Assembly: GCF_014137865.1 (NCBI RefSeq)
Contig: NZ_JACGWU010000006.1
Location: 62,001 to 126,000 of the forward strand
Direction of reading: 5' to 3'
DNA: 64,000 nucleotides
Source: Alpinimonas psychrophila
Lineage (GTDB): Bacteria > Actinomycetota > Actinomycetes > Actinomycetales > Microbacteriaceae
The notes below the pieces were generated by a model. The model saw nothing but the letters and a program-made list of their open reading frames with translations. It was not told the origin of the DNA and ran no database searches. Shown piece after piece: positions 6,973 through 56,180 of this stretch. Both the position numbers and the translations under genes were made by a program. Position 1 is the first letter of the stretch. Each line of letters starts with the position of its first letter.

Positions 6973-7027
6973 TGTGACCTCCGGAATTAAATGGACTGTT
7001 GTATCGATCGCTGTTGACCTTGGGGAA

Positions 7028-7058
7028 AATGTATTGCAAAAACTTTACGGTAGTCAAG
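7028..7058 (-). promoter_or_regulatory. Promoter and overlapping island operator for the ABC transporter operon
   Basis: On the minus strand, TTGACT (7057-7052), an 18-base spacer and TACATT (7033-7028) form a good sigma-70-type promoter 56 bases before the binding-protein start. The plus-strand core TTACGGTAGTCA (7045-7056) covers the -35 side and matches the island element at 10 of 12 positions. A repressor bound here would block the promoter. The rest of the 220-base gap shows nothing else certain. Confidence 0.6.
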
Positions 7059-7192
7059 TTTTTGAGGCAAAGTTAATGCTTTTGCAACAATTCATTTTTT
7101 CCGGCAAGAAAAATGACGTGCAAATTTCAAAACGGCGGCCGGCTAAGCGCGTCGTAACACGCCTAATCGGCCGCCGAGGTCTTTCTCATTGG

Positions 7193-7993: not shown

Positions 7994-8054
7994 TTCAAGT
8001 ACCTCCGTGAAATTTGGTGTCTGTGAATTAAAGAGTGTCAGCGAGCCCTCAACA

Positions 8055-8081
8055 TGTCAAGAAATTGTTACGGTCGTCACG
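8055..8081. promoter_or_regulatory. Island operator between the cyclase and the PaaX-type regulator
   Basis: The core TTACGGTCGTCA (8068-8079) differs by one base from the identical cores at 9579 and 11856. The minus strand carries TTGACA at 8060-8055, a perfect -35 for the leftward cyclase gene, although no matching -10 is obvious. The location between the two divergent genes suits autoregulation by the PaaX-type protein. Confidence 0.55.
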
Positions 8082-8165
8082 CAATCACCGTATTTGATGT
8101 AAACATTGGACGCAATCTCCGTGCCACAAGGCCTGTTGCCCTCACGGCTGTATATTCTGAGGACC

Positions 8166-9047
8166 ATGGAATCCCCACTGCAGACCGCGACGGTCGAGGA
8201 GCTGAGCGCGTCAGAGACCTCCCAGACTCCTCGCCACCAACAACTTATCGTGACAATATTTGGCTTGTATGCTCGCGAGACCGGTGCCTCACTGCCCGTC
8301 TCTTCCCTCGTTCGGCTTCTGAGAGAACTTGGCGTGGAAGCTGCGGGCGTTCGATCATCCGTTTCGAGGCTCAAGCGTCGCGGGGTTCTTGAGAGCAAGA
8401 AAGTAGACGGGGTGGCGAGCTATGGAATTGTTCCGGGTCGCGTCGATATGTTTACCGAAGGCGATACCAGAATTTTCTCGCCGCGCCACTCCTCCGCAGA
8501 AGATAAATGGTTGCTCGCGGTTTTCTCAATTCCCGAAACTATCCGAGCCAAGAGGCACATTCTCAGGTCTGAACTCACGCGGATGGGATTTGGTTCCGTA
8601 ACCAGTGGTGTCTGGATAGCCCCCGAACGAACGTGGGTGCGGGCCAAACAACAGCTTGATCGCCTCGGACTCGAACCGTACATCGACTACTTCCGTGCTG
8701 AGCACTTGTCACCATTAGAGCTTTCTCGCAAGGTGGGGACGTGGTGGGACCTCGTTGCTCTCGATACGATGTATGCGGACTTCATTGCCAAGTATGAGAG
8801 TCTCAAGGTCAAATGGGATTCACGCCCAGGCAACCTGTCGGGAGAAACTTTGCGCGACGCGTTCGTTGGCTACGTCCCAATGATTACGGAATGGCGACGG
8901 CTTCCGTATAAAGACCCCGGACTATCGGCTGAACTTCTGCCAGCAGACTGGAAAGGCATGCTGGCTGAGGGACTTTTCAGCGACCTGCACCACCACTTGC
9001 GAATCCCAGCCCATGACTACGTGATGGGTGTTATGAGCCAGAAATAA
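8166..9047 (+). CDS. PaaX-family transcriptional regulator
   Basis: The 293-residue protein matches PaaX: an N-terminal winged helix (around residues 25-75, with RQHQ-type start of helix 1, VSSLVRLLRELG and VRSSVSRLKRRGVL), a central PaaX domain (DKWLLAVFSIPE and RSELTRMGFG, about residues 110-140) and a C-terminal region rich in aromatic residues (WRRLPYKDPGLS). PaaX proteins repress phenylacetate genes and respond to phenylacetyl-CoA; here the inducer may be a CoA thioester such as 2-aminobenzoyl-CoA. The start at 8166 follows TGAGGA by 5 bases; an ATG 60 bases upstream is possible but lies outside the domain. It ends tail-to-tail with the RidA-like gene (17-base overlap). Confidence 0.85.
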   Translation: MESPLQTATVEELSASETSQTPRHQQLIVTIFGLYARETGASLPVSSLVRLLRELGVEAAGVRSSVSRLKRRGVLESKKVDGVASYGIVPGRVDMFTEGDTRIFSPRHSSAEDKWLLAVFSIPETIRAKRHILRSELTRMGFGSVTSGVWIAPERTWVRAKQQLDRLGLEPYIDYFRAEHLSPLELSRKVGTWWDLVALDTMYADFIAKYESLKVKWDSRPGNLSGETLRDAFVGYVPMITEWRRLPYKDPGLSAELLPADWKGMLAEGLFSDLHHHLRIPAHDYVMGVMSQK

Positions 9048-9429
9048 CGGCGATTCCCTGAATTTCAATGAGAGCCTCTGGCTGCCACAATGCTGTAACA
9101 CCAATGCCTGCCATGGCGGGGTAACGTGTCCCGGCCATATCGCGCCACGCCCGACCAATCTCACGGCCGTGCGCCTGATAGTCCGGAATATTGGTGAGGT
9201 AGATCGTGACCGTGACGAGATCACTTGGCTGTCCGCCAACCTGGGCGAGAGTCGCTAGGACGTTACCAAACGCCTGACGAAACTGTTCAACGATGCCTCC
9301 AGCGACAATTTTTCCATCGGGTCCCATCGCTGTCTGGCCGCCAAGGTACAGTGCGTTACCCGCCAGTACGCCATGCGAAAATCCGGATGGCGTGGCCAAG
9401 CTTGTGGGGTTAACGAGTTGGTGAGTCAC
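9031..9429 (-). CDS. RidA/YjgF-family protein lacking the usual catalytic arginine
   Basis: This 132-residue protein has the Rid fold: GVLAGNALYLGGQ near residue 20, a QFRQAFGNVLATL helix and IEIQGIAVI at the end. It starts at GTG, 8 bases after AAGGAG. Rid proteins hydrolyse enamines/imines, and some act as 2-aminomuconate deaminases in aromatic pathways. The conserved Arg in the PAR motif of active RidA is replaced by Met106 (YPAMAG), so this protein belongs to a divergent Rid subgroup and may not be a classical imine deaminase. The location suggests work on an amino-bearing intermediate of anthranilate breakdown. Confidence 0.85.
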   Translation of the reverse strand: MTHQLVNPTSLATPSGFSHGVLAGNALYLGGQTAMGPDGKIVAGGIVEQFRQAFGNVLATLAQVGGQPSDLVTVTIYLTNIPDYQAHGREIGRAWRDMAGTRYPAMAGIGVTALWQPEALIEIQGIAVISGS

Positions 9430-42004: not shown

Positions 42005-43336
42005 GTGAAAATCCTTGTACTGGGCTCCGGCGCCCGTGAGCACGCCATCATCACCGCACTCCTGGCCGAGCAGGCGGACCACGACATTGTGGTGGCTCCT
42101 GGCAACGCCGGCATCGCCCATGACGTGCCTGCGGTCAACATCAACGCCGAAGATCCCGATGCCGTCGTGGCCCTCGCGCTAGGTCTCGAGATGGAGCTCG
42201 TCATCATCGGCCCCGAGGCTCCGCTGGTGGCCGGTGTGGCTGACGCGGTGCGGGCGGTGGGCATCCCGGTATTCGGACCCAACCAAGATGCCGCGGCGCT
42301 CGAGGGTTCGAAGACATTTGCCAAGCGCATCATGGATGCCGCGGGCGTTCCCACGGGTCGGGCGCTGAAGGTGTCGACGCTGCTGAATGCCGAGACGGCC
42401 CTGGATGATTTTGGCGCCCCGTACGTGGTGAAGGCCGATGGTTTGGCTGCCGGCAAAGGCGTTCTCGTCACCCACGATCGCGAAGCCGCGGTGACCCACG
42501 CCGCCCACTGGCTTCCGCACGGCGATGTGCTCATCGAAGAGTTTCTCGATGGCCAAGAAGTGTCGCTCTTTCTGTTGGCTGATGGCCACGACGTTCTTCC
42601 CCTCTCCCCCGCCCAGGACTTCAAACGTCTAAGCAACAATGACGAGGGGCCCAACACCGGGGGAATGGGCGCCTACTCGCCGCTTCCGTGGCTGGATGCG
42701 GAGTTTGGCAGCGAGCATGCCTTCGTCACCGAGTGCATCGAGAACGTGGCGCTGCCCACCGTGCGTCAGCTCGAGCGCGAGGGCACCCCGTTTGTGGGCT
42801 TGCTCTACTGCGGTCTGATTCTCACGAAGGCTGGGATTCGCGTTATCGAGTTCAACGCTCGTTTTGGTGACCCCGAAACGCAGGTCGTTCTTCCCCGCCT
42901 CAAGACTCCTCTGTCGAGGCTGCTGCTCGCCACCGCCAACGGTCAACTTGGTGGCATGGATCGACCGAAGTTCAGCGATGACGTTGCCGTAACGGTCGTG
43001 TTGGCTAGCGAGAATTATCCTGGGAGCCCTCTTACGGGACGTGAAATTACGGGGCTGGATGCTGCTTCCGCCGTCGAAGGCGTCCACATTGCCCATGCGG
43101 CGACCGCCGTGCGTTTTAACAGCACCGGTGCACTGGAAAGTGGTTCTGAAACGGACAACGAATTCGGCGTTGAAACCCTGATTGCCACCGGGGGTCGCGT
43201 CCTCAGCGTGGTCGCTCTCGGGCAAGACTTCGCGCAGGCTAGAGCTCGCGCGTATGAGGCGCTCGGGCACATTCATCTCGAGGGTGGCCAGTACCGCACC
43301 GACATCGCGGCCAAAGTTGCGGACATCACCCGGTGA
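42005..43336 (+). CDS. purD: Phosphoribosylamine-glycine ligase
   Basis: The 443-residue ATP-grasp enzyme starts at GTG 42005 with KILVLGSGAREHAI. LVIIGPEAPLVAGVAD near residue 62, the ATP-binding APYVVKADGLAAGKGV and the RFGDPETQ metal-binding motif near residue 290 are diagnostic. It joins glycine to phosphoribosylamine. It overlaps purC by 4 bases. Confidence 0.96.
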   Translation: MKILVLGSGAREHAIITALLAEQADHDIVVAPGNAGIAHDVPAVNINAEDPDAVVALALGLEMELVIIGPEAPLVAGVADAVRAVGIPVFGPNQDAAALEGSKTFAKRIMDAAGVPTGRALKVSTLLNAETALDDFGAPYVVKADGLAAGKGVLVTHDREAAVTHAAHWLPHGDVLIEEFLDGQEVSLFLLADGHDVLPLSPAQDFKRLSNNDEGPNTGGMGAYSPLPWLDAEFGSEHAFVTECIENVALPTVRQLEREGTPFVGLLYCGLILTKAGIRVIEFNARFGDPETQVVLPRLKTPLSRLLLATANGQLGGMDRPKFSDDVAVTVVLASENYPGSPLTGREITGLDAASAVEGVHIAHAATAVRFNSTGALESGSETDNEFGVETLIATGGRVLSVVALGQDFAQARARAYEALGHIHLEGGQYRTDIAAKVADITR

Positions 43337-44277
43337 GCGACAACGACGTGAGCGGTACCGGCTCAGAAGCAACAACCGGATTTTCGAGCGGCGAAGAACT
43401 GAGCTTGCGCGGGTGGGACCACGCGTATTCCGGCAAGGTGCGGGACCTCTATGTTCCTGCCGGTGAATCTCTGGCAACGACCCCCAGAATTCTGGTCGTC
43501 GCCAGCGACCGCGTCAGCGCTTTTGACCACGTACTAGAACCGGGCATCCCGGGAAAGGGCGCCCTCCTCACTCGCCTGAGCCTGTGGTGGTTCGACCAAC
43601 TCGACGTTCCGAATCATTTAGTGCCAGACGACCTGCGCCCGGAAGCAATTCCTGAAGCGGTTGCCGACCGCGCGATGCTCGTGGCCAACCTCGACATGTT
43701 CCCGGTGGAATGTGTCGTGCGCGCGTATCTCTCCGGTAGTGGCTGGCTCGAGTATCAGGAGTCCCAGAGCGTCTGCGGCATTGCGCTCCCCGTCGGGCTC
43801 CGTGATGGTGACAAACTTCCTGAACCGATCTACACCCCCGCGTGGAAGGCCCCGTTCGGTGAGCACGACGAGAACATCACGTTCGAGCGCACCGTCGAAC
43901 TCGTCGGTCTCGAAGTTGCCACCAAGCTCCGGGACCTGTCGCTCAGCATTTTCACTGATGCCGCCGCGATTGCCGCCCAGCGCGGAGTCATTTTGGCCGA
44001 CACCAAGTTTGAGTTTGGCGCCGACCGCGAGACCGGGGTCATCACCCTCGCCGATGAAGTACTCACGAGCGACTCCAGCCGCTACTGGGATGCCGAGGCT
44101 TACGCCGCAGGAACCACCCCGGCGACAAAGATGCTGAGCTTCGACAAACAGATCGTGCGCAACTGGCTCTCGACCAATTGGAACAAGCAGGGGACCCCGC
44201 CGGTGCTTCCCGCCGATATCGTGGCGCAAACATCCGCCAGGTATCGCGAACTTATCGAACGGATGCTCGGTAAATGA
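43333..44277 (+). CDS. purC: SAICAR synthase
   Basis: The 314-residue protein has YSGKVRDLYVPA (ATP-binding KVRD motif) near residue 35, the VVRAYLSGSGWLEYQ segment near residue 132 and LADTKFEFG near residue 218, all PurC signatures. It adds aspartate to CAIR. The GTG start overlaps the purD stop (GTGA). A 27-residue non-conserved N-terminal extension precedes the domain. Confidence 0.96.
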   Translation: MSDNDVSGTGSEATTGFSSGEELSLRGWDHAYSGKVRDLYVPAGESLATTPRILVVASDRVSAFDHVLEPGIPGKGALLTRLSLWWFDQLDVPNHLVPDDLRPEAIPEAVADRAMLVANLDMFPVECVVRAYLSGSGWLEYQESQSVCGIALPVGLRDGDKLPEPIYTPAWKAPFGEHDENITFERTVELVGLEVATKLRDLSLSIFTDAAAIAAQRGVILADTKFEFGADRETGVITLADEVLTSDSSRYWDAEAYAAGTTPATKMLSFDKQIVRNWLSTNWNKQGTPPVLPADIVAQTSARYRELIERMLGK

Positions 44278-44954
44278 TCTTCGCACGCCCACCCGTAGGC
44301 GGCGCTCCGCTGTGGCGACGGCTCGTGCAAGTTTTGATCGGGCTCGTGCTCTACGGTTTCTCTGCCGCACTCATGATTCGTGCCATGATCGGCCTGGACC
44401 CGTGGGACACCCTGCACCAGGGACTCTCCGTTATGACAGCCGTGCCGTTTGGCATTGTTGTCATCATCGTGGGGGCCGGAGTTCTCTTGCTCTGGATTCC
44501 CCTTCGGCAAAAGCTCGGCATCGGCACCGTGCTCAACCTGATCATCATTGGGCTGGCGATCGATTTCTTTTTGATGGTGCTGCCAGTGGCATCCGGTCTC
44601 AAGGTCGGCCTGGTTCTCTTTGTTATTGGTGTGGCCCTGAACGGCCTCGCCATTGCGCTCTATGTGGGGGCAGGGTTGGGAGCTGGTCCACGCGATGGCT
44701 TGATGACCGGCCTCGTGAAGCGCACCGGCAGACCCGTGTGGCTCGTGCGCACGGCCATCGAGATAACCGTTCTGGTGGGTGGCTGGATGCTCGGCGGCAC
44801 CATCGGTATCGGCACCGTCATCTATGCCCTAGGCATCGGGCCGGTCGCACACGTGTTGATGCCGTACTTTGCTCTGGATGCGAAGCCGGGGAGCGGGGGA
44901 AATCGCGGGCAAGCCCTGGCGCGGCTTGAAGCGGAAAACCCCGAGGGCCACTAG
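44274..44954 (+). CDS. YczE/YyaS-family membrane protein
   Basis: The 226-residue protein has about five hydrophobic helices. MIGLDPWDTLHQGLS near residue 38 and GAGLGAGPRDGLMTGLVKRTG near residue 142 are the two conserved motifs of this family. The function is poorly known; the B. subtilis relative YczE affects surfactin production. Its start overlaps purC by 4 bases, so it is read with the pur genes. Confidence 0.82.
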   Translation: MIFARPPVGGAPLWRRLVQVLIGLVLYGFSAALMIRAMIGLDPWDTLHQGLSVMTAVPFGIVVIIVGAGVLLLWIPLRQKLGIGTVLNLIIIGLAIDFFLMVLPVASGLKVGLVLFVIGVALNGLAIALYVGAGLGAGPRDGLMTGLVKRTGRPVWLVRTAIEITVLVGGWMLGGTIGIGTVIYALGIGPVAHVLMPYFALDAKPGSGGNRGQALARLEAENPEGH

Positions 44955-45035
44955 GCCCGAATTTTTCTTTCTCATTCGGCGAGAAGTTGTGGGCGGAAAC
45001 GGGCATAAAAACGGCTTTTGTGCGTTTACGTAACC

Positions 45036-45929
45036 ATGTACACGAACCTCCTCGAACCGGCCACCCGCATGGGTACCGTCACTCTGCGCGTCGCGAACCT
45101 TGATTCCATGACGTCCTATTATCAGGATGTCGTGACACTGGACATCCTGAGCCAGACGCACGAGACGGTGACGCTCGGACGCCACGGCGTTCCCATCGTG
45201 AATCTTGAGTACGCGCCCGAACTGCAGCACGCGGCTCCCGGGCAAGCTGGGCTGTTTCACACTGCCATCCTCTTTGAGACGCAAGCCGCCCTCGCCGCCG
45301 CCGTGTACTCGGTAGCGACCAAGGCGCCCTCCACGTTTACTGGCAGTAGCGATCACCTCGTGAGCCAAGCGTTCTACTTCAATGACCCTGAGGGTAACGG
45401 CATCGAGCTGTACTGGGATCGCGACAAAACCGCGTGGAGTTGGACCCACGGGTCGATCGAGATGGCGACCCTGTACCTGGATCCGAATAAGTTTCTCGAG
45501 GAGCATCTGAGCCCCGAGCTGATTGACGACCCTCGGGTGGGCGGCGTCACCGTGGGGCACGTGCACCTCTCCATTGGCAATATCGCTCAGGCGCACGAGT
45601 TCTATGTGACGCAGCTGGGCTTCGAGCAAACGGCCGCCTTTGGGCCATCTGCCTTGTTCGTGAGCGCGGGCGGCTACCACCACCACATGGGGCTGAACGT
45701 CTGGAACAGCGCCGGGGCTGGGCGTCGTCAGCGCACCTTAGGGCTTGGGCAAGTAGATGTCATTGTTCCCACCGCGGATGCCCTCATGGAGACAAGCGAA
45801 CGCCTCGTGAACTTTGGGCGCGACGTGCGGCACGACGGCGAGACCCTCTTCGTCGATGACCCGTGGGGCAACCTGATTCGCCTGAGCGCGGAGCCACCGG
45901 TTGTTGGTGGGGTTGCTGGTCGAAAGTAG
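45036..45929 (+). CDS. Two-domain VOC protein, CatE/extradiol-dioxygenase-like
   Basis: The 297-residue protein has two VOC modules (about residues 8-130 and 160-285). The first ends in FYFNDPEGNGIELYWDR with its Glu; the second has VGHVHLSIGNIAQAHEFYV and GGYHHHMGLNVW, which supply His ligands. The final position usually filled by Glu is Arg in WGNLIRLS, a departure from active extradiol dioxygenases. First-domain His is also absent (GTVTLRV). The metal site may thus be mixed or altered. The ATG at 45036 is chosen; no clear ribosome-binding site. Confidence 0.8.
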   Translation: MYTNLLEPATRMGTVTLRVANLDSMTSYYQDVVTLDILSQTHETVTLGRHGVPIVNLEYAPELQHAAPGQAGLFHTAILFETQAALAAAVYSVATKAPSTFTGSSDHLVSQAFYFNDPEGNGIELYWDRDKTAWSWTHGSIEMATLYLDPNKFLEEHLSPELIDDPRVGGVTVGHVHLSIGNIAQAHEFYVTQLGFEQTAAFGPSALFVSAGGYHHHMGLNVWNSAGAGRRQRTLGLGQVDVIVPTADALMETSERLVNFGRDVRHDGETLFVDDPWGNLIRLSAEPPVVGGVAGRK

Positions 45930-46057
45930 ATACCCGGTTTATTTCTGCAAGAGCAAGACACGGGCGGCTTTTCCTCCACAAGGCTTGATCCGCGTCTAGA
46001 TCTCAACCGTTTCTTGCTTCAAGAATTTGCGCGTCCTCGTGTCCGTACCTTCGAAAC

Positions 46058-46300
46058 ATGGGACGACAAAACGGGTATTGGAAACGCCATCCGAAGAAGG
46101 ACCTCCAGGCTCTCCTGCTAGCCCTTGATCAGAGCGGTTGGTACATCCTCGATCCGCCCACTTATTACAAAGCACTGTGCCCCTGCCCACTTCGCCACCG
46201 CACAACCATTCATCTCAGCCCGAGCAATCCTCGTTATGCCAAAGAAAAATTGCGATACTTAGTTTCCACGACCTGCTTCACGAATCTCGGAGGTAACTGA
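46058..46300 (+). CDS. Small HicA-like protein with a Cys/His motif
   Basis: The 80-residue protein has a HicA-like layout: KDLQALLLALDQSGWYI as the first helix and strand, then YYKALCPCPLRHRTTIHLSP, then a helix and CFTNLGG. The catalytic His of HicA toxins (in the GSH motif) is not in place; instead there is a CPC...H...H pattern that could bind zinc, ahead of LSPSNPRYAKEKLRYL. The next gene starts one base later and looks like its partner. A toxin-like or RNA-binding role is inference only. Confidence 0.6.
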   Translation: MGRQNGYWKRHPKKDLQALLLALDQSGWYILDPPTYYKALCPCPLRHRTTIHLSPSNPRYAKEKLRYLVSTTCFTNLGGN

Positions 46301-46301
46301 C

Positions 46302-46646
46302 ATGACATCTATTCGCATGTCCATGACGTTCAACGTGACCGGTGCCGCAGACTTCGACGCTCACATCGATGACGTGATTGAGAACTTGCTCGAGCTCGAG
46401 GCAGCGGATGCTCGTCTCAGCGACAGCGACATCGAAGCAGTGCTGACCGAGGGTCTCCTCACGATAAACGTCTTAGCCACCGACACGACTCTGGACGCCG
46501 CGAGCACCCTGGCCAATTCAGCGATTCGTTCGGCCATTCATGCGGCAGGTGGCGCAACTCCCGAGTGGGACGCGATGGCGACTGACGCCGACTTCGTCAC
46601 GACGGCCGAGTACAGCTTCATTGATCAGGTTCTCGCCAAGGCCTAG
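46302..46646 (+). CDS. Hypothetical partner of the HicA-like protein
   Basis: The 114-residue acidic protein has FNVTGAADFDAHIDDVIENL at the N-terminus and a central ADARLSDSDIEAVLTEGLL strand pattern, then NSAIRSAIHAAGG. This pattern of an acidic helix, an SDSDI-like strand turn and a helix recurs in small proteins next to HicA-like genes. It has no DNA-binding helix-turn-helix that I can see. GGAGG precedes the ATG by 8 bases, inside the end of the upstream gene, so the pair is coupled. Confidence 0.55.
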   Translation: MTSIRMSMTFNVTGAADFDAHIDDVIENLLELEAADARLSDSDIEAVLTEGLLTINVLATDTTLDAASTLANSAIRSAIHAAGGATPEWDAMATDADFVTTAEYSFIDQVLAKA

Positions 46647-46751
46647 GCTTGCGCCGCAGCATCCGGCCGTTATGAAAGTATTTTCGGCTCAGGGCTGACG
46701 AAGACGGGTGCCCAATAGATAGTGTGATGTCTTCGAGCTGGAAGGCACCCC

Positions 46752-47606
46752 ATGGGCGTTGAGAACAACACGCGCGCGATTGAAGACACCGTCGTCACAG
46801 ACTTCACCGACCGCATGAGCTACAGCGGATACCTTGATTTGCCGACCTTGCTGGCGGCGCAAAAACCGCTCAGCGTTCCGGAGCATCACGACGAACTGTT
46901 GTTCATCATCCAGCATCAGACCACCGAGTTGTGGATGAAGCTCGTCATCCACGAGCTCGAGGCCGCACTCGCGTACTTGCAGGCCGACGACCTCCCCCAC
47001 GCGCTGAAGTGCGTCGCCCGGGTCAAGCACATTCAGAAGACGTTGACCGAGCAGTGGTCGGTGTTGGCGACGCTGACGCCCAGCGAATACGCCCAATTTC
47101 GGGGAATGCTCGGCAACTCGAGCGGGTTTCAGTCGTCTCAATACCGGGCCATCGAGTTCATGTTGGGCAACAAAAACGAGAAGATGCTGGCCGTCTTTGA
47201 GAGCGATGCGGATGCTGCGGCCCTCCTGCGTCGCACCCTCGAGGCGCCGAGTCTCTACGACGAGTTCCTCCGATTCTTGGCCCGTCAGGGGCACGCGATT
47301 CCGGCGTCGGTTCTCGAGCGGGATGTGACGAAGGCGTGGGTCTTCAGCGAAGAATTGATGCCCGTGTTCATCCACATTTACGACGAACACGAAACGAATT
47401 GGGCAGCGTACGAGGCCTGTGAAGAAATGGTGGACCTCGAGGAAAATTTCCAGTTCTGGCGCTTTAGGCACCTGCGCACGGTGCAACGCATCATCGGTAT
47501 GAAGATGGGCACCGGCGGAAGCTCCGGAGCACCTTTCTTGCAAAAAGCACTCGAGCTGACGTTCTTTCCCGAGTTGTTTGCCGTACGCACCGAAATCGGT
47601 AAGTAG
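46752..47606 (+). CDS. kynA: Tryptophan 2,3-dioxygenase
   Basis: The 284-residue protein is a clear TDO: SYSGYLDLPTLLAAQKPLS, the active-site His in LLFIIQHQTTELWMKL near residue 57, GNSSGFQSSQYRAIEF near residue 120, and the haem-ligand His in FRHLRTVQRIIGMKMG near residue 241, followed by TGGSSG. It oxidises tryptophan to N-formylkynurenine. It opens the kyn operon, with the amidohydrolase and kynU downstream. Confidence 0.96.
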   Translation: MGVENNTRAIEDTVVTDFTDRMSYSGYLDLPTLLAAQKPLSVPEHHDELLFIIQHQTTELWMKLVIHELEAALAYLQADDLPHALKCVARVKHIQKTLTEQWSVLATLTPSEYAQFRGMLGNSSGFQSSQYRAIEFMLGNKNEKMLAVFESDADAAALLRRTLEAPSLYDEFLRFLARQGHAIPASVLERDVTKAWVFSEELMPVFIHIYDEHETNWAAYEACEEMVDLEENFQFWRFRHLRTVQRIIGMKMGTGGSSGAPFLQKALELTFFPELFAVRTEIGK

Positions 47607-47629
47607 CCTCGGCCCATGATGTGTGTCTC

Positions 47630-48667
47630 ATGAGCTTTCTGCAGCATTCCTCCCGTGCCCGCATTATGTCCACCGGCGAGCTCGGCACGCGCGTGCCACT
47701 CCTCGGCGACGCCCACGTGCACCTCGGGCTGATCGATCAGACGCTGTTACTGGCGGGAGGCATTGGGCGCGTGCAGGAGCTGGGGTGGATCCCTGAAGTC
47801 GCGGCACAGTGGCGGGCAGACGCTGATGCCGCGGCGAGCACAGATCCCGGTACTGGCGGGTATCCAGAGATCTCGATTGCGGGAGCATTTTTGACAGCTC
47901 CCGGCGGGTATCCGAGTGACCGCGCGTGGGCACCGGCTGGGGCGGTGCGCGCGGTACAGAGTGTGGCCGATGCAGGAAATATTGATGCGCTGGCGGCGGT
48001 TGCAGAGCAGGTGGCGGTGGGGGCATCCGTTATTAAAGTTACCCTCAATTCGGATGCTGGACCGGTCTTGGATGACGCCACGTTAGCTGCGATCGTTCTT
48101 AGTGCCAGCAGCGCCCAACTGCGGGTCGTCGCGCACGTCGAGGGAATCGGTCAGTGTGCTCGGGCGATTGCGGCCCGGGTTGACGTGTTGGCGCATACGC
48201 CCTTTACGGAATCGATACCGGATGCCCTGCTCAAGCAGGCCGTGGTTCAGGGCCAGCAGTGGATCAGCACCATCGATATTCATGGGTATGGCACACCGGA
48301 TGCTCGGCAAACCGTTTCTCGTGACATCGCCCTCGATAATCTTCGACGCTTTGTGGATCTTGGCGGAATAGTGATCTACGGCACTGATCTCGGCAATGGG
48401 AAACTCCCCGTTGGCGTGAATGCGCGCGAGGTGCGGGCGCTGCAGGGTGCGGGAATGTCAGCGGATGACGTTATGGTCGCGATGACGGCGTGGTGGCGGA
48501 CCATGCCGTTAGGTGACTCTCTCGTTGCGGATGATTCCCGGGGGAACGAGAGGGTCACTTTCGTCCCGGGGCCAGGCGTTCCCGAGAATTTTGCCGGCTC
48601 GGCAGATTTTGCCGACTGGCTTTCCCATGCGCGTGTCGTGGCCGCTCGAGAACTGGAGAACTTATGA
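47630..48667 (+). CDS. Amidohydrolase-superfamily protein in the kyn operon, candidate formylkynurenine formamidase
   Basis: The protein has about 345 residues. It has all the metal and catalytic residues of amidohydrolases: HVH (29, 31), Lys136 in VIKVTL, His169 in VVAHVEG, His189 in LAHTPF and Asp253 in YGTDLG. It sits between tryptophan dioxygenase and kynureninase, the place where N-formylkynurenine must be deformylated, and overlaps kynU by 4 bases. It is unrelated to the KynB cyclase fold and to alpha/beta-hydrolase formamidases. The start is uncertain (ATG 47630 or 47666). The assigned role is inference from context. Confidence 0.75.
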   Translation: MSFLQHSSRARIMSTGELGTRVPLLGDAHVHLGLIDQTLLLAGGIGRVQELGWIPEVAAQWRADADAAASTDPGTGGYPEISIAGAFLTAPGGYPSDRAWAPAGAVRAVQSVADAGNIDALAAVAEQVAVGASVIKVTLNSDAGPVLDDATLAAIVLSASSAQLRVVAHVEGIGQCARAIAARVDVLAHTPFTESIPDALLKQAVVQGQQWISTIDIHGYGTPDARQTVSRDIALDNLRRFVDLGGIVIYGTDLGNGKLPVGVNAREVRALQGAGMSADDVMVAMTAWWRTMPLGDSLVADDSRGNERVTFVPGPGVPENFAGSADFADWLSHARVVAARELENL

Positions 48668-49998
48668 ACGATTTGACCCCGGATGCGACTTCGACTGCCC
48701 AAGCACTCTTTGCCCGCGCGCAAAAACTCGACGCGGCCGACCCGCTCGCGTCTTACCGTTCACTGTTTTATGGCACGGATCCTGCCACCGCCGCGAACAC
48801 TCAGGGCATGCCCATCGCGTACTTCGACGGCAACTCGCTCGGCCGGCCGGCTCTCGCAAGTTTTGACCGCATCGAGAAGTTCTTGCGCGCCGACTGGGGA
48901 ACGCGGCTGATTCGCAGCTGGGACGAGCAGTGGATGGAGTTGCCGCTCGAGCTCGGCGATGCTCTCGGGGCTGCGGCCCTCGGCGCTGCCCCAGGTCAAA
49001 CTTTTATCGGCGACTCCACCAGTGTGCTGCTGTACAAGTTGGCGCGCGCCGCGGTTGCACCTCTGTCCGAGGATGTTGAGCGGGCGAAGAAAGCCGCTCA
49101 CCCCATTGCCGCCGGCCGCGGCGGACGCACCGAGATCGTCGTGGACAGCGATAACTTTCCCACGGACCGCTACCTACTGGAGGGCATCGCGGCCGAGCGT
49201 GGAATGACGTTGCGGTGGATCGACGCCGACACCTCCGCCGGGGTGACTCCCGAGCAGGTTGCCGCCGCCCTGAGCGAGAAGACCGCTCTCGTTCTGCTGA
49301 GCCACGTGGCGTACCGCTCGGGATTCATGGCCGACGGGCCCGGCATTACGAAGCTCGTGCACGATGCCGGCGCGCTCATTCTCTGGGATTTGAGTCACTC
49401 GGTCGGCTCCGTCGTCGTGGAGCTCGACGCGTGGGGCGCGGATCTCGCCGTGGGCTGTGGCTACAAATACCTGTGCGGCGGCCCCGGGTCACCCGCGTTC
49501 GGGTACGTGCGCGCGGACCTGCAAGACACCCTCGAGCAACCGATTCAGGGGTGGATGGGCGTAGCGGATGTCTTCGCAATGGGACCCGAATATGTGGCGG
49601 CTGCGGGCATCCGCCGTTTCATCACCGGCACTCCCCCCGTTATTGGCATGCTCGCCCTGCATGACCCGATCGCGATGATTGCCGAGGTCGGGATCGCCGC
49701 GATTCGCGCCAAGTCGATTGCGCTCACCGAGTTTGCCATTGAGGTGACGGATGCCCTGCTCGCCCCCTTGGGCGTCACCCTAGCTACTCCCCGCGAGGCA
49801 TCTCAGCGCGGTGGCCACGTGACTCTGAACCACCCGGCCATGCGTGAGGTCAACGCCGCTTTGTGGGAGGTCGATGTGATCCCCGACTACCGTGACCCGC
49901 ATGGCCTGCGTATTGGGTTGTCTCCGCTGACCACTTCGTTCACCGAGACGCACCTCGGTATGCTCGCCGTGCGTGATGCCCTGCTGCGTCTCGCGTAG
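48664..49998 (+). CDS. kynU: Kynureninase
   Basis: The 444-residue PLP enzyme has YFDGNSLGRPALASFDRIEKF near residue 52, the LILWDLSHSVGSVVVEL cofactor Asp region near residue 240, and the PLP Lys268 in GCGYKYLCGGPGSPAF. It cleaves kynurenine to anthranilate and alanine. Its ATG overlaps the amidohydrolase stop (ATGA). The anthranilate made here could enter the CoA-dependent pathway at 11,909-15,938. Confidence 0.96.
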   Translation: MNDLTPDATSTAQALFARAQKLDAADPLASYRSLFYGTDPATAANTQGMPIAYFDGNSLGRPALASFDRIEKFLRADWGTRLIRSWDEQWMELPLELGDALGAAALGAAPGQTFIGDSTSVLLYKLARAAVAPLSEDVERAKKAAHPIAAGRGGRTEIVVDSDNFPTDRYLLEGIAAERGMTLRWIDADTSAGVTPEQVAAALSEKTALVLLSHVAYRSGFMADGPGITKLVHDAGALILWDLSHSVGSVVVELDAWGADLAVGCGYKYLCGGPGSPAFGYVRADLQDTLEQPIQGWMGVADVFAMGPEYVAAAGIRRFITGTPPVIGMLALHDPIAMIAEVGIAAIRAKSIALTEFAIEVTDALLAPLGVTLATPREASQRGGHVTLNHPAMREVNAALWEVDVIPDYRDPHGLRIGLSPLTTSFTETHLGMLAVRDALLRLA

Positions 49999-50034
49999 CG
50001 CGGCTGGTTTAGCTCGGCTGGTTTAGTGGTTGGG

Positions 50035-50313
50035 CTAGAGGCTGCGATATGCGTCGGCGCGATGGGCGATGCGCATCACGTGGACTACCAGGGCGCTCTC
50101 GTCAATGCGAACGAGGACCCGGTAGGAGATGCCCACATACCCGGAGCGCAGACCCTGTAACTCAGCGCCCAGGGGCTTCGTCACACGCATCGGATTCTCC
50201 GCCAGCGGACCATCTAGGAATCGGAGAACGGCGTCGACAATCTTCGGGCTCAGCCGGCCAAGAGCACGGGTAGCCGGGAACGAAATCTCGACCCGGAAAC
50301 GTTCATCCGTCAT
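50035..50313 (-). CDS. RelE/ParE-family toxin
   Basis: The 92-residue protein has the RelE pattern: FRVEISFPATRALGRLSPKIV, then KPLGAELQGLRSGYVGISYRVLVRID and VMRIAHRADAYRSL, with the Arg and Tyr residues that act on mRNA in RelE toxins. It overlaps the antitoxin gene by 4 bases and lies downstream of it, the usual order. The pair converges on kynU. Confidence 0.9.
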   Translation of the reverse strand: MTDERFRVEISFPATRALGRLSPKIVDAVLRFLDGPLAENPMRVTKPLGAELQGLRSGYVGISYRVLVRIDESALVVHVMRIAHRADAYRSL

Positions 50314-50579
50314 CGCTTGGTCAGCTGCGCTCGAACCTCATCCAGAGTCAGCATCCGGCCGGAACTAACCTCGGCTTCCGCCTCGGCCATCTCCGCTGCA
50401 TGCGTCGGATCTGAAAGCCACGCTAGGGTCTCTTGGAGCGAGTCCAAATCCTCCGTTGAAATCAGTACCGCCGCCGGCTTCCCGTGGCGGGTAATGATGA
50501 CCGCATCATGCGTCGACTCGACGCTCTCGACCAGCATCGAGAGCTTGTCTTTCGCTTCACTTACCGACATTGTCTGCAT
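50310..50579 (-). CDS. Phd/YefM-family antitoxin
   Basis: The 89-residue protein has the Phd/YefM N-terminal DNA-binding domain: MSVSEAKDKLSMLVESVESTH followed by AVIITRHGKPAAVLIS. The C-terminal half (LQETLAWLSDPTHAAEM and the acidic EAEAEVSSG) should wrap the toxin. A second in-frame ATG three codons in is equally possible. The pair probably regulates its own promoter in the 125-base gap upstream. Confidence 0.9.
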   Translation of the reverse strand: MQTMSVSEAKDKLSMLVESVESTHDAVIITRHGKPAAVLISTEDLDSLQETLAWLSDPTHAAEMAEAEAEVSSGRMLTLDEVRAQLTKR

Positions 50580-50704
50580 GGTGCAATCGTGCCATAGTTT
50601 TGGCCAAAAAAGTAGCTGATATTTAGGCTCATGAGTGTTCTGTGCAATCAGCGAGAGGACCTAAATAGAAGAGAATCGCTCGCGGAGCGAGCAGGCCTTC
50701 AGCC

Positions 50705-52210
50705 TTAACGGCGAGAAACGCGTGGCGGGCGGGCGGCAGCGCGCTCGGCACCACGATCGCGGGCGTAGCGCTGCGCATCCTCGCCCGAGAGTGCAAGCAG
50801 TACCCCAATGTCGAGGCTGAACGCCACGAGACCACTCTGAAGGGTGAGGCTGGCGTCACCGCTGAACCGCACGATGGTGATGGCAATGGTGAGCGTGCTG
50901 ATTGCCATGGCTACCAGACGCGACCACGTGTGCCCCTTGAACACGCTCACGGTCAGCCAGATCGGAATGATCGTCACCGCCAAGAAGAAGACGGCGAGCG
51001 CGATCACGGCCCACATGGCGAAGGTCTCGGTGACATCGCGCCCGTCGAACATCACTCGGCCCGTGTCGTTGTCTGCCACAAGGTGGGGAAACAGACCACC
51101 GATAAGGTCAGCCAGCAGGATGAACCCCACGGATAACCATGCACCCGAGCGCAGCAGGAGCAGGATGGCTCCGACGGCGGTCCCGATGGGGCGTACGGCT
51201 CGGATGAGGGTCGTGGGTTGAGCATCCGTGTCATGTGAGGTTGCAGATATTGACGGTGTTACGGATGCTGCCGCTGGCGCCAGATCAAACGTCAGGGCGA
51301 TGCCCCGCAGATCGACAATCGGGAGGGCGCCATCGGTGATGATGCTGTCACCGCCGCCATTGCGGGAATGGTAGCCGGTCGAGAAATTCTCGATGACATT
51401 GACCGTAATGTCGCGTGTGACTTGATCTTCCTGCACATGTTCCAGGGTCTGCACAATGTAATCGCGTTCAATGTCAGTATCTTGCTCGATCTTGTGCGTG
51501 ACCTGCAGGGTGAAGAGGCTGAAGCCAACGGTACGGTCGTAGGTTGCGCCGGCAACCCAGTCGACCCGGTGACCGCCAGGAAGGAGCCAACCGTCAGGGG
51601 TTTTCCAGAAGCGAACATGGTGACGTTGAGACGGATTGCCTGCGACCTCCCGCTGATAGGCAAAGTCGTGAACGCGACCGAAAACGTAGAGGTTCGAGAC
51701 CGGCGCCTCCGGATAACTTTTGCGCCTGAGTGTGGAGGAAATAATGCGTCGCGTCGACTTCGAATCGATGGGATCGGCAGCGGTCCATCCCGCTCTGGTC
51801 ATGGCAGTGTGCAGTTGCATTTCGGTTCCCAGGAACCCGAGGTTCACGGGGTCGCCGAGCATTCCTTCGCGGGTGCGGGCACGGCCAATGAAATAGTCGG
51901 GCAGGTAAATGCGCGAAAGAGCGGTGTGAACACGGGGCAGGACGAGATAGGCGAGCAGCACGTAGATCGGAATGATGAACCAGATCTGGGTGAACCCGAG
52001 CGTGACCGACTGGGTGATGAGCAGAACAATCAGCCACATGGCGGACAGCGTGCCAATCAAGAAGAAGGTGCCGTCAAGCAGACGCCTCAACCGGCCGCGG
52101 GTGTCGCTCAGGTTGCGGTATCCGGTTGCTCCAGACACACCGACGCGGGCGAGTGCATCGCGAAGGGCTCTCTCTGCTTGAGAGAAGTCTGGAATCCCTT
52201 TTCGTCCCAC
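50705..52210 (-). CDS. LssY-C-domain membrane protein
   Basis: The 501-residue protein has two N-terminal helices (FFLIGTLSAMWLIVLLI and IWFIIPIYVLLAYLVL), then an LssY C-terminal domain at about residues 115-265 with HTAMTRAGWTAADP, HVRFWKTPDGWLLPGGHRVDWVAG and the DTDIERDYIVQTL block, and four further helices at the C-terminus. The function of the domain is unknown. It diverges from purS and is not an enzyme I can assign. A short hairpin, GCTCGC-GGA-GCGAGC (50678-50692), lies after its stop. Confidence 0.75.
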   Translation of the reverse strand: MGRKGIPDFSQAERALRDALARVGVSGATGYRNLSDTRGRLRRLLDGTFFLIGTLSAMWLIVLLITQSVTLGFTQIWFIIPIYVLLAYLVLPRVHTALSRIYLPDYFIGRARTREGMLGDPVNLGFLGTEMQLHTAMTRAGWTAADPIDSKSTRRIISSTLRRKSYPEAPVSNLYVFGRVHDFAYQREVAGNPSQRHHVRFWKTPDGWLLPGGHRVDWVAGATYDRTVGFSLFTLQVTHKIEQDTDIERDYIVQTLEHVQEDQVTRDITVNVIENFSTGYHSRNGGGDSIITDGALPIVDLRGIALTFDLAPAAASVTPSISATSHDTDAQPTTLIRAVRPIGTAVGAILLLLRSGAWLSVGFILLADLIGGLFPHLVADNDTGRVMFDGRDVTETFAMWAVIALAVFFLAVTIIPIWLTVSVFKGHTWSRLVAMAISTLTIAITIVRFSGDASLTLQSGLVAFSLDIGVLLALSGEDAQRYARDRGAERAAARPPRVSRR

Positions 52211-52341
52211 GGCCTAATTCTACCGGCGGCGTTTCACGCGAGGCTCGGCGAAAAGTCAGTGAAAACTCGAAATCTTGGTCACTGCAAGGCCGGTACACTG
52301 GAGGTATCCCCCTGTCGCTCGCGAACTCGCTGGAGTAGCTC

Positions 52342-52593
52342 ATGCCCATCATCGTCGTAGAGGTCATGCCCAAAGCCGAAATTCTTGACCCGCAGGGCAA
52401 GGCTGTCGCTGGGGCTCTGACCCGTCTTGGTTACACGCAGTTTTCGGCCGTTCGTATGGGCAAGCGGTTCGAACTCACGGTCGAGGGTCCGGTCACTGCC
52501 GAGACTCTGGCCGCCGCCAAAGTTATCGCCGACGAGATCCTCTCCAACGCCGTCATCGAAGACGTCGTCAGCGTCACCGAGCTAGGCGCGTAA
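52342..52593 (+). CDS. purS: FGAM synthase subunit PurS
   Basis: The 83-residue protein has [19 protein letters not shown] at the N-terminus and [13 protein letters not shown] in the middle, the PurS pattern. PurS bridges PurL and PurQ in the three-part FGAM synthase. A GGAG site lies 8 bases before the ATG. Its stop and the purQ start share one base (TAATG). TACACT at 52295 is a possible -10. Confidence 0.95.
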
Positions 52594-53294
52594 TGCGCAT
52601 CGGCGTCATCACCTTCCCGGGCTCGCTCGACGAGCGCGATGCCCAGCGCGCCATACGTCTTGCCGGCGCCGAGCCGGTGGCTTTGTGGCATGGTGACCAC
52701 GACATCCAGAATGTGGATGCCATCGTGCTGCCCGGTGGTTTCAGCTACGGCGACTACCTGCGTGCGGGGTCGATCGCCAGCCACGCGCCAATTATGGCCG
52801 AGGTCATTGACGCCGCCAACAAGGGTGTTCCCGTGCTCGGTATCTGCAACGGATTCCAGATGCTGGCCGAGGCCCGTCTGCTCCCCGGCGCCCACACCCG
52901 CAACGCGCACCAGCACTTCATTCGCCGCGACCAGAGGCTACGCGTCGAGAACAACACCACCGTCTGGACCAGCAACTTCGAGCAGGGTGCAGAGATCATC
53001 ATTCCCCTCAAGAATGCCGATGGCCGTTATATAGCGGATGCCGAAACCATCAAACGCATCGAAGGCAACGGACAGGTCACGTTCCGTTACGTAGGGCTCA
53101 ACCCCAACGAATCCATGAACGACATCGCTGGCGTCTCCAACGAACGCGGCAACGTTGTCGGCTTGATGCCGCATCCGGAGCACGCGGTGGAACCGGGCTT
53201 TGGCCCCAACACTGCCGTGGCCATGCGTTCGGGACTCGACGGGCTGAAGTTCTTCACCTCCGTCATTCAGAACACTCTTCTCGCTAACGCGTAG
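52593..53294 (+). CDS. purQ: FGAM synthase glutaminase subunit PurQ
   Basis: The 233-residue class I glutaminase has [19 protein letters not shown] at the N-terminus, the nucleophile Cys in [13 protein letters not shown] near residue 88 and the His-Glu pair in [11 protein letters not shown] near residue 193. It releases ammonia from glutamine for PurL. It is coupled to purS. Confidence 0.96.
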
Positions 53295-53305
53295 GGGTTG
53301 ATGGT

Positions 53306-53842
53306 ATGACGACAACTTCGGCAGGTTCTTCGCCCGTATCTCGGGCGGAATCCGCGCCCGAAACCACGGCATCGGCTGCGGGCTTCACCCCGCGCAAGCT
53401 GTATCGCATGCTTGCCATCGCCGAAGCCATTACGTGGACTCTGCTCATCGCCGGGTTAATTCTGCGTGCTACCGTTAATCTAGACGCCACCTTGTTCACC
53501 ACGATTGGTGCCGTGCACGGATTCGTGTTCATCTCCTATGGAGCAACCGCCATTTTGGTCGCGATCAACCAGCGCTGGCACTTCGGGCTGGGCCTGTTGG
53601 CGGTCGTGACGGCGATCATTCCTTATGCCACGATTCCGTTTGAACTCGTGATGGAACGTCGGGGGCTGCTGACCGGAGCATGGCGCCTCACGAAGACGGA
53701 TGACCCGCGCGACAACCACTGTTTCGACCGTTTCGTGCGCTGGTTCTTGAACCGGCCGGCGCTATTAGTCTCGGCCATCATTGTCGCCATCGTTCTGGTC
53801 TTCACCATCCTGCTGACGGCCGGGCCTCCCGGCGGTAAGTAG
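53306..53842 (+). CDS. DUF3817 membrane protein
   Basis: The 178-residue protein has a Ser/Ala-rich N-terminus, then a DUF3817 domain (RMLAIAEAITWTLLIAGLILR, then VHGFVFISYGATAILVAINQRWHF) with three helices, and a fourth helix near the C-terminus after RWFLNRPALL. The function is unknown. It sits between purQ and purL, spaced by 11 and 46 bases, and is probably cotranscribed with them. Confidence 0.85.
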   Translation: MTTTSAGSSPVSRAESAPETTASAAGFTPRKLYRMLAIAEAITWTLLIAGLILRATVNLDATLFTTIGAVHGFVFISYGATAILVAINQRWHFGLGLLAVVTAIIPYATIPFELVMERRGLLTGAWRLTKTDDPRDNHCFDRFVRWFLNRPALLVSAIIVAIVLVFTILLTAGPPGGK

Positions 53843-53888
53843 TTTCAGCATCCGAAATGTTTGTCACTAAAGAGAAGGGACGTCACGC

Positions 53889-56180
53889 GTGAGCACCCAC
53901 GTCGCCGACACCGTTGAGAACGCCATTGCTACTCCCGACAAGGAACAGCCCTATGCGGCACTGGGCCTGAAGCCCGATGAGTACGCGCAGATTCGCGAGA
54001 TTCTCGGCCGTCGCCCAACCAGCGGTGAGCTCGCCATGTACTCGGTGATGTGGAGCGAGCACTGCTCGTACAAGTCCAGCAAAATGTACCTTCGACAGTT
54101 TGGCCAGAAGGTCTCTGAGAAGATGAAAGAGAAGCTCATGGTGGGCATGGGCGAGAACGCCGGTGTCGTGGATGTTGGCGAGGGCTGGGCCGTGACATTC
54201 AAGGTGGAGAGCCACAACCACCCCAGCTACATCGAACCATTTCAGGGTGCGGCCACCGGTGTGGGGGGAATCGTGCGCGACATTATTTCGATGGGCGCCC
54301 GCCCCGTAGCGATCATGGATCAGCTGCGTTTTGGCGCCATCGATCACCCCGACACGGCGCGCGTTGTCAACGGTGTCGTGAGCGGAATCAGTTTCTACGG
54401 CAACTGCCTGGGGCTCCCCAACATCGGTGGCGAGACGTATTTTGACTCCGTGTATCAGGGCAACCCGTTGGTCAACGCCCTCTCGGTCGGGGTGCTTCGC
54501 CACGAAGACTTGCACCTCGCCAACGCGTCGGGCGTGGGCAACAAAATTGTTCTGTTCGGAGCGCGCACCGGTGGCGACGGCATTGGTGGAGCATCCATTT
54601 TGGCATCAGACTCGTTCGATGCGGCCGGCCCGACCAAGCGCCCCGCGGTGCAGGTAGGCGACCCCTTTGCTGAGAAGGTTCTCATTGAGTGCTGCCTCGA
54701 GCTCTACCGTTTGGGTCTCGTTGAGGGAATTCAAGACCTCGGTGCCGCCGGAATTTCGTGTGCGACCAGCGAGCTCGCCGCGAACGGTGATGGCGGAATG
54801 ATTGTTCATCTCGAAGAAGTTCTGCTGCGCGACCCGACGTTGACAGCTGAAGAGATTTTGATGTCCGAGAGCCAGGAGCGCATGATGGCGGTCGTGGAGC
54901 CCAGCAAGCTCGACGCGTTCCTCGCGGTTGTTGCCAAGTGGGATGTGGAGACCAGCGTGCTCGGTGAGGTGACTGACACCGGCCGCCTCATCATTCACCA
55001 CTTCGGTGAAGAGATCGTCAACGTTGACCCGAGTACTGTTGCCGTGGATGGCCCCGTTTACGAGCGTCCCGTGGCCTACCCCCTATGGCTCGATGCACTT
55101 CAGAAGGATTCTGCCTCGACTCTGCCGCGGGCTACGTCTGGGGCGGAGCTGCGCGAGCAGGTCATCCGCCTCGTTGCCAGCCCCAACTTGGCCGACAAGA
55201 GTTTTATCACCGACCAGTATGACTATTTCGTCATGGGGAACACTGCACTGAGCTTCCCGGATGACGCCGGCATGATTCGTGTCGACGAGGAATCGGGGCT
55301 GGGCTTTGCCATCGCGACGGATGCCAACGGTCGCTACTGCCAGCTCGACCCGTATGCCGGCGCCCGGCTTGCTCTGGCCGAGGCTTACCGCAACGTTGCG
55401 GTCTCCGGCGCCGTTCCGGTAGCCGTTACCGACTGCTTGAACTTTGGTTCGCCCGAGAACCCCGAGGTCATGTGGCAGTTCAAGCAGGCCGTTGAAGGCC
55501 TGGCCGACGGATGCCTCGAACTCGAGATTCCCGTCACCGGCGGCAACGTCTCCTTCTACAATCAGACCGGCGATCAGCCCATCTTCCCCACCCCCGTGGT
55601 CGGCGTTCTGGGCATCATCGACGACGTCGCGCGCCGCATCCCGAGCGCCTGGCAAGACGAGGGTAACAACATTTACCTGCTGGGCTATACCCGTGATGAA
55701 CTGGATGGGTCGGCCTGGGCCGGCACCATTCACGACCACCTGGGCGGCCTCCCTCCCATCCTCGACCTCTCGACCGAGATGGATCTCGCGGGTTTGCTGC
55801 AAGGTGCCGCTATCGAAAGCCTGGTGCTCTCGGCCCACGACTTGTCCGACGGAGGACTCGCTCAGGCCCTCGCCGAGAGTGTCATGCGGTTCGGCGTCGG
55901 GGCACGCGTGTGGCTCAACGACATCATCGAACGAGATGGCGTGGATGCGACGGCAGCACTCTTCTCGGAGTCGACCGCCCGCGTGCTCGTCTCCGTTGAC
56001 CGCGAAGACGACGTGCGCTTCGTGGGTCTCTGCAACGCGCGCAATTACCCTGTTCTACGCATCGGCGTCACCGACCAGCGCGGTGACGACGCTGTGCTCG
56101 ACGTTCAGGGCCAGTTCATCATCCCGGTCTCGGAGATTCGCGAGCGTAGCAACGAGACCCTGCCCAAGTACTTCGGGTAG
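53889..56180 (+). CDS. purL: FGAM synthase large subunit PurL
   Basis: The 763-residue protein is the short PurL form that needs PurS and Pur[16 protein letters not shown] near residue 52, [20 protein letters not shown] near residue 105, [14 protein letters not shown] near residue 222 and [15 protein letters not shown] near residue 638 are the expected ATP- and substrate-binding blocks. It starts at GTG. A terminator follows at 56241. Confidence 0.96.

Follow-up and report, generated by a model that had tools for sequence, protein, structure and literature searches.

The 64,000-nucleotide stretch of the Alpinimonas psychrophila genome analysed here (contig NZ_JACGWU010000006.1, positions 62,001 to 126,000; hereafter the window) contains, at 46752-49998, a three-gene kyn operon in which a predicted metal-dependent amidohydrolase, which we call AH, lies between tryptophan 2,3-dioxygenase (KynA) and kynureninase (KynU). 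Genomic context, together with a modelled fold and metal site, indicates that AH very probably acts as the kynurenine formamidase of this operon, and deformylation of N-formylkynurenine is well supported as the best reading of the context. We favor this reading because the tight and widespread linkage of AH to kynA and kynU survives changes in gene order, because in eight AH-less genomes kynA has a linked alpha/beta-hydrolase distantly related to kynurenine formamidase, and because AH and KynU share one open frame in one genome and the predicted fold and metal site would be suited to amide hydrolysis. The genes and the codons of the expected metal ligands, each invariant in 97 of 97 aligned rows, are as follows.

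46752-47606, + strand: kynA, tryptophan 2,3-dioxygenase, the producer of N-formylkynurenine (PF03301, E 5.4e-61; TIGR03036, 392.9 bits, cut-off 390.7)
47630-48667, + strand: AH, amidohydrolase, proposed kynurenine formamidase (AlphaFold2 model, invariant ligands)
47714-47722, + strand: codons of His29 and His31, the HxH metal motif of AH
48035-48037, + strand: codon of Lys136 of AH, the expected carboxylated bridging lysine
48134-48136, + strand: codon of His169 of AH, expected metal ligand
48194-48196, + strand: codon of His189 of AH, expected metal ligand
48386-48388, + strand: codon of Asp253 of AH, expected metal ligand or catalytic base
48664-49998, + strand: kynU, kynureninase, converting kynurenine to anthranilate and alanine (PF22580 KYNU_C, 83 bits, cut-off 27)

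The reading frame of AH (47621-48667) has two possible starts: GTG at 47621, which leaves a 14-nt gap after the kynA stop codon, and ATG at 47630, from which the residues of the 345-aa protein are numbered here. A first-pass annotation, made from the sequence of the window, had described kynA, an amidohydrolase and kynU as one unit with a 4-base overlap between the last two genes and with no KynB or alpha/beta-hydrolase formamidase. The AH stop codon and the kynU ATG indeed share four bases (ATGA), Pfam and NCBIfam matches agree with the description of the unit, and these searches detected neither a KynB-type nor an alpha/beta-hydrolase gene in the window's kyn operon. The match of kynU to TIGR01814 (190 bits) is under the NCBIfam equivalog cut-off of 246. 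AH itself had no match at E 0.1 to any Pfam model, those of alpha/beta-hydrolases included, or to the KynB-type models PF04199 and TIGR03035, and its only NCBIfam match was Xaa-Pro dipeptidase (31 bits, cut-off 500). AH is outside both known formamidase families.

In the pathway that we propose, KynA converts tryptophan to N-formylkynurenine by opening its indole ring, and KynU cleaves kynurenine to anthranilate and alanine, activities that are established for these two families. Between these steps, the binuclear-type site of AH (His29, His31, Lys136, His169, His189 and Asp253) would polarise the N-formyl carbonyl, and a metal-bound hydroxide would attack it, releasing formate and kynurenine. 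AH would do the work of KynB or the alpha/beta-hydrolase formamidase without being homologous to either, and since kynA, AH and kynU are the only genes present, the window's operon would end at anthranilate.

We surveyed 398 genomes of the window's own bacterial family (the window's genome is G000). AH was counted in 123 of them, after seven of the 130 genomes with matches at E 1e-20 or better were dropped with only 75-88 bits (G008, G020, G198, G225, G270, G369 and G417), and kynA was present in 142; both genes occurred in 96 genomes, AH only in 27 and kynA only in 46, giving a Fisher p of 4e-32 for co-occurrence (uncorrected for kinship). In 94 of the 96 genomes with both, kynA is followed immediately by AH on the same strand; the remaining two have the genes on different contigs. 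The first-pass annotation had proposed a survey for kynA-amidohydrolase-kynU triplets lacking KynB. The triplet is present in 85 of the 96 genomes, with the 4-base overlap between AH and kynU in 74 of the 85 (65 ATGA, 9 GTGA); KynB exceeded its cut-off in none of the 80 genomes searched, and in no control genome. Six of the 11 genomes without the triplet have kynU elsewhere (G065, G075, G088, G144, G211 and G332), while the other five have contig ends (G252, G391), a truncated AH (G164) or genes on different contigs (G192, G336). A clearly intact AH is present in three of the kynA-AH genomes that have no kynU nearby. AH stays with kynA where kynU lies apart (G088, G211 and G332), and it adjoins kynU in 16 genomes that have no kynA. 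In G346, AH and KynU share a single open frame of 736 residues, stop to stop.

The searches for KynB and for alpha/beta-hydrolases covered 80 genomes (all 46 with kynA only and 34 of the 96 with both genes), and 21 of the 46 had their gene neighbourhoods read. Eight of the 46 AH-less genomes (G027, G090, G116, G139, G177, G227, G323 and G419) have an alpha/beta-hydrolase linked to kynA. Its gene lies right after kynU in five of them, one gene further in G177, immediately behind kynA in G139 and just ahead of kynA in G090, where the match is weak (113 bits). The profile of the linked hydrolase is distantly related to the solved kynurenine formamidase 4e11 (E 5.5e-10), and we regard its formamidase role as putative because its best match is 9x6a, titled carboxylesterase (E 9e-43). 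At 100 bits, no linked hydrolase was detected in the kyn stretch of any of the 96 genomes with both AH and kynA (8/46 versus 0/96, p 8e-5, uncorrected for kinship), and none was detected at E 1e-5 in the best 80 of 460 named AH loci described below. Weaker, unlinked hydrolase matches occur in both groups, with maxima of 129 bits (G227) and, in an AH genome, 118 bits (G371).

Both types of operon occur in genus g12, with the hydrolase in G116, G177, G227 and G419 and AH in G310 and G371. In a quick kynA tree of 115 rows (G164 and G192 labelled manually), a starred branch inside the AH-type rows unites G010 with seven of the eight hydrolase-type rows, provided that the small-genome rows are taken as the root. 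Because hydrolase-type rows nest inside AH-type rows, AH may have been displaced by the alpha/beta-hydrolase in some lineages. Among the other AH-less loci, kynA and kynU stand alone in G010, G161 and G333 and kynA stands alone in G107, G284 and G322; in the seven small-genome relatives that were read (genera g11, g14, g31, g89 and g103), kynU and kynA lie together with no formamidase of known type adjoining.

These AH-less loci have further neighbors. Adjoining kynU and kynA in four small-genome loci (L061 1422-7436, L060, L065 and L075) are folD, glyA and purU; purU, encoding formyltetrahydrofolate deformylase, was identified in L061, and the other three loci were read by eye. A patatin-like gene (L061 5269-6120) lies between kynU and kynA in G014 and overlaps both by a few bases. 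The PaaX-type regulator gene right after kynU in G161 (L070 6866-7762) is a candidate operon regulator, and G333, G099 and G029 show comparable sequences downstream of kynU (by eye).

An AlphaFold2 model of AH, made with 64 homologues, had a pLDDT of 92.1 and a pTM of 0.91. The top structural match to this model was arginine carboxypeptidase 3be7 (Z 30.2 over 304 residues), followed by arginine carboxypeptidase 3mtw (Z 29.8), Xaa-Pro dipeptidase 2qs8 (Z 29.5) and ochratoxin-degrading enzymes; the 50 entries listed are, by title, amidohydrolases, deaminases and related hydrolases of the amidohydrolase superfamily. Foldseek was also used for structural neighbors. As modelled, AH has the distorted TIM barrel of this superfamily. 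The Pfam model Amidohydro_1 scored 13.7-19.8 bits against three AH homologues, under the tool threshold of 25, and did not match the window AH at E 0.1. The six ligands that the first-pass annotation had picked out were all located at the residues it had named, and they are invariant in 97/97 rows of one alignment and 65/65 of a second. The 97-row alignment was built from AH stretches of at least 285 residues (97/109), with G310 left out for an insertion and the window row added, and the second joins the window row to 64 of the 80 named loci; the window row sits in both, and the two sets share some organisms. Lys136 lines up with the VIK motif of Cc2672 (3mtw). Tyr94, Trp100, Asn256 and Glu267 are likewise invariant in both alignments (97/97 and 65/65), and the one distant paralogue that was aligned (P0010) has Asn256 and Glu267 but not Tyr94 and Trp100. 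These four residues may take part in substrate binding. Together, the predicted fold and ligands identify AH as a member of the amidohydrolase superfamily, prolidase-like or arginine-carboxypeptidase-like, with a predicted binuclear-type site, and the modelled fold and site suit amide hydrolysis. The window AH and its sister are without most of the N-terminal strands before HxH (47630-47713) that relatives such as those in G029 and G026 have, and many AH matches in the family-genome search begin only near the HxH motif.

AH is widespread in actinobacteria. A scan of named genomes with the 97-row alignment returned 460 relatives, and the best 80 were retained; a scan with the single window protein as query had confirmed no relative. 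These named loci overlap in part with the 398 family genomes. The best named match to the window AH is from a Microbacteriaceae bacterium, and the genera among the best 80 of 460 include Cryobacterium, Leifsonia, Agromyces, Isoptericola, Cellulosimicrobium, Oerskovia, Rhodococcus, Nocardia, Nocardioides, Saccharopolyspora, Actinoplanes and others. Within this set of 80, 79 relatives have kynA or kynU no more than 5 kb away, in several gene orders: kynA-AH-kynU in 60, AH-kynU in 10, kynA-kynU-AH in six (Actinoplanes, Couchioplanes) and kynA-AH in three (two at contig ends), with one unlinked (Amycolatopsis, L287). Linkage to kynA and kynU, which supports but does not define an assignment to EC 3.5.1.9, was found in 94/96 family genomes with both genes (next to kynA), in 85/96 (as a triplet) and in 79/80 named loci. 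A genome-wide search for kynA, made for eight of the 11 named loci without a linked copy, located it elsewhere in five genomes; the other three, from Microbacterium (two) and Frigoribacterium (one), gave no match. Two Nocardioides loci continue from AH into kynU, an FAD monooxygenase and a hydroxymuconic-semialdehyde-type dehydrogenase, an arrangement that may correspond to the 3-hydroxykynurenine branch. A class-wide search of 394 genomes gave 28 matches to AH at E 1e-35: 15 belong to the window's family, four to another family (284-322 bits, all kyn-linked), and nine (137-179 bits) have neither kynA nor kynU in the stretches read and were not counted as AH family.

AH resembles the prolidase-like amidohydrolases (Cc2672, 3mtw; 3be7; 2qs8; the ochratoxin-degrading enzymes) in fold (Z 27-30 over about 300 residues), and its Lys, His, His and Asp ligands align with those of 3mtw; however, identity is 18-22% and the kyn linkage is a feature of AH. 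Tyr94 and Trp100 also distinguish AH from its distant paralogue, while Asn256 and Glu267 are common to both. Phenylurea hydrolase B (4whb) and molinate hydrolase have the same superfamily fold (Z about 26.5), but they share 16-17% identity with AH and act on xenobiotic substrates. Phenylurea hydrolases act on N-aryl carbonyl bonds, so such chemistry would be possible on the AH scaffold. With KynB (PF04199, TIGR03035), AH would share its reaction, its place in a kyn operon and metal-dependent activation of water, but it matches neither KynB model and is modelled as a TIM barrel. With the alpha/beta-hydrolase kynurenine formamidase (KFase, or arylformamidase; e.g., 4e11), it would share the reaction, whereas its modelled scaffold is a metal-dependent TIM barrel. 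KynB is itself described, in an excerpt of PMC4243253, as unrelated to KFase and as matching no known amidase or amidohydrolase. The first-pass annotation had concluded that AH is a third, non-homologous formamidase; the comparative genomics supports this proposal, as does the lack of any match to KynB or alpha/beta-hydrolase models. "Third" here counts the two classes contrasted in PMC4243253, and there may be further classes outside the literature searched.

An amidohydrolase has previously been invoked at this step in the mycemycin clusters of Streptomyces. Excerpts of PMC5867642 propose that the "amidohydrolase" MymD/MyeD cleaves the amide of (5-chloro-)N-formylkynurenine, resting this role on a myeD deletion that abolished the mycemycin product; MymD went into inclusion bodies, and these excerpts describe no assay of it. 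MymD/MyeD and AH thus share a proposed deformylation between tryptophan dioxygenase and kynureninase, but they differ in length (513 versus 345 aa), the two being compared here by their descriptions. The acnG product of an actinomycin cluster, a 326-residue arylformamidase in the portion of PMC6521150 available to us, could be any of these types. Among the matches listed from the open-licence PubMed Central literature, no title or abstract described an assayed kynurenine formamidase of the amidohydrolase superfamily.

Several observations weigh against assigning the formamidase step to AH, or against its novelty. By annotation, the nearest solved relatives of AH comprise carboxypeptidases, a dipeptidase and ochratoxin-degrading enzymes. 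Twenty-seven of the 123 AH genomes lack a PF03301 kynA; in these, AH is beside kynU in 16, kynU is elsewhere in 10 (nine in genus g35) and one has no kynU match. No indoleamine dioxygenase (PF01231) was detected in the 27, which shows little because no control genome matched either. Formamidase linkage is not obligatory, since 38 of the 46 AH-less kynA genomes have no linked match to either known formamidase type. KynB-like cyclases above 70 bits, below the KynB cut-off, occur in 10/34 AH genomes versus 6/46 AH-less genomes, and the sister genome G001 encodes one, scoring 65.7 bits against solved KynB, on the opposite strand 2.8 kb upstream of kynA; in addition, KynB over its cut-off was absent from the 14 control genomes as well. 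A few AH copies look broken because there is a stop inside the AH match in G065, G144 and G162, and AH is truncated in G164. The fused AH-KynU frame is a single case and might be an assembly error because its genome is in 350 contigs. As to newness, an amidohydrolase for this step was already proposed in Streptomyces (PMC5867642, in the excerpts cited above).

The four loci with a broken AH (L092, L124, L129 and L130, in G065, G144, G162 and G164) are otherwise normal kynA loci, possibly following recent loss. In genus g35 (L017, L080 and L083), AH has neither kynA nor kynU nearby and an ABC-transport gene lies downstream (by eye); kynU is elsewhere in these genomes, and kynA was not found in them.

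AH might instead hydrolyse another amide, such as a kynurenine- or anthranilate-containing peptide or an N-acyl conjugate, with N-formylkynurenine left to an unlinked formamidase or to slow spontaneous hydrolysis. The carboxypeptidase- and ochratoxinase-type relatives, the 27 AH genomes without kynA, the 38 AH-less genomes without a linked formamidase and the KynB-like cyclases of some AH genomes would all fit such a role. We nevertheless consider it unlikely, as the triplet is kept across many genera and several gene orders, no kyn stretch was seen to contain both AH and the linked alpha/beta-hydrolase, and the window's genome has no match to the alpha/beta-hydrolase profile at 1e-8 and three PF04199 proteins, none of them above 35 bits on the KynB model (cut-off 223). 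This genome is 97.5% complete, so a formamidase gene could be missed; no better candidate than AH was found in it.

Alternatively, KynU could act first on N-formylkynurenine, and AH could then deformylate the resulting N-formylanthranilate. Some kynureninases accept N-formylkynurenine slowly, and this order of reactions also fits both the linkage of AH to the two genes and the AH-kynU pairs without kynA. The usual substrate of KynU is kynurenine, however, AH stays beside kynA in G088, G211 and G332, where kynU lies elsewhere, and the eight AH-less genomes have a linked hydrolase distantly related to kynurenine formamidase, making this order quite improbable.

The first-pass annotation had named a cyclase encoded at 7193 as one possible source of an activity that could overturn its proposal:

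7193-7993, - strand: PF04199 cyclase, an isatin hydrolase homologue outside the kyn system (5nmp, E 4.7e-71)

It is scarcely credible that this cyclase is the formamidase and AH incidental: the protein carries the HxxxHxDxxxH motif that an excerpt of PMC5341072 gives for cyclase-like enzymes including KynB, but it matches isatin hydrolase far better than KynB (4co9, 4cz1; E 3.1e-4), scores 34.5 bits on TIGR03035 (cut-off 223) and lies ~39 kb from kynA, beside a RidA-type gene and a PaaX-type regulator, and we rejected it. ABC-transport genes adjoin this region (4977-9429; by eye), which may represent a second route towards anthranilate. We also set aside an identity of AH as ACMS decarboxylase: the operon consists of kynA, AH and kynU only, and the ligands of AH include a lysine that ACMS decarboxylase lacks. 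The latter is an amidohydrolase-superfamily enzyme of the kynurenine pathway, according to the title of a reference in PMC13151070.

If AH is the kynurenine formamidase, it would fill a missing step of tryptophan breakdown in a large part of the actinobacteria and name a family whose examined members pass no Pfam or NCBIfam cut-off. It would be a third independent solution to one reaction, with an apparent swap of formamidase genes between related operons, and genome-based calls that the step is missing, made where neither known formamidase gene is found, would be corrected. More tentatively, and we think it doubtful, AH could be the formamidase with which many actinobacterial kyn operons started, the alpha/beta-hydrolase having taken its place in some lineages since then, with the AH-KynU pair that occurs without tryptophan dioxygenase (for example in two Microbacterium and one Frigoribacterium; fused in one genome) salvaging external N-formylkynurenine, for example from oxidised or photodamaged tryptophan.

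The kyn operon of the window is embedded among purine genes (42005-56180), with purD and purC upstream and purQ and purL downstream, and pur genes adjoin the kyn operon in G026, G062 and G083 as well (by eye). Formate from deformylation can feed purine synthesis, and a functional link between the operon and these pur genes is a matter of speculation only.

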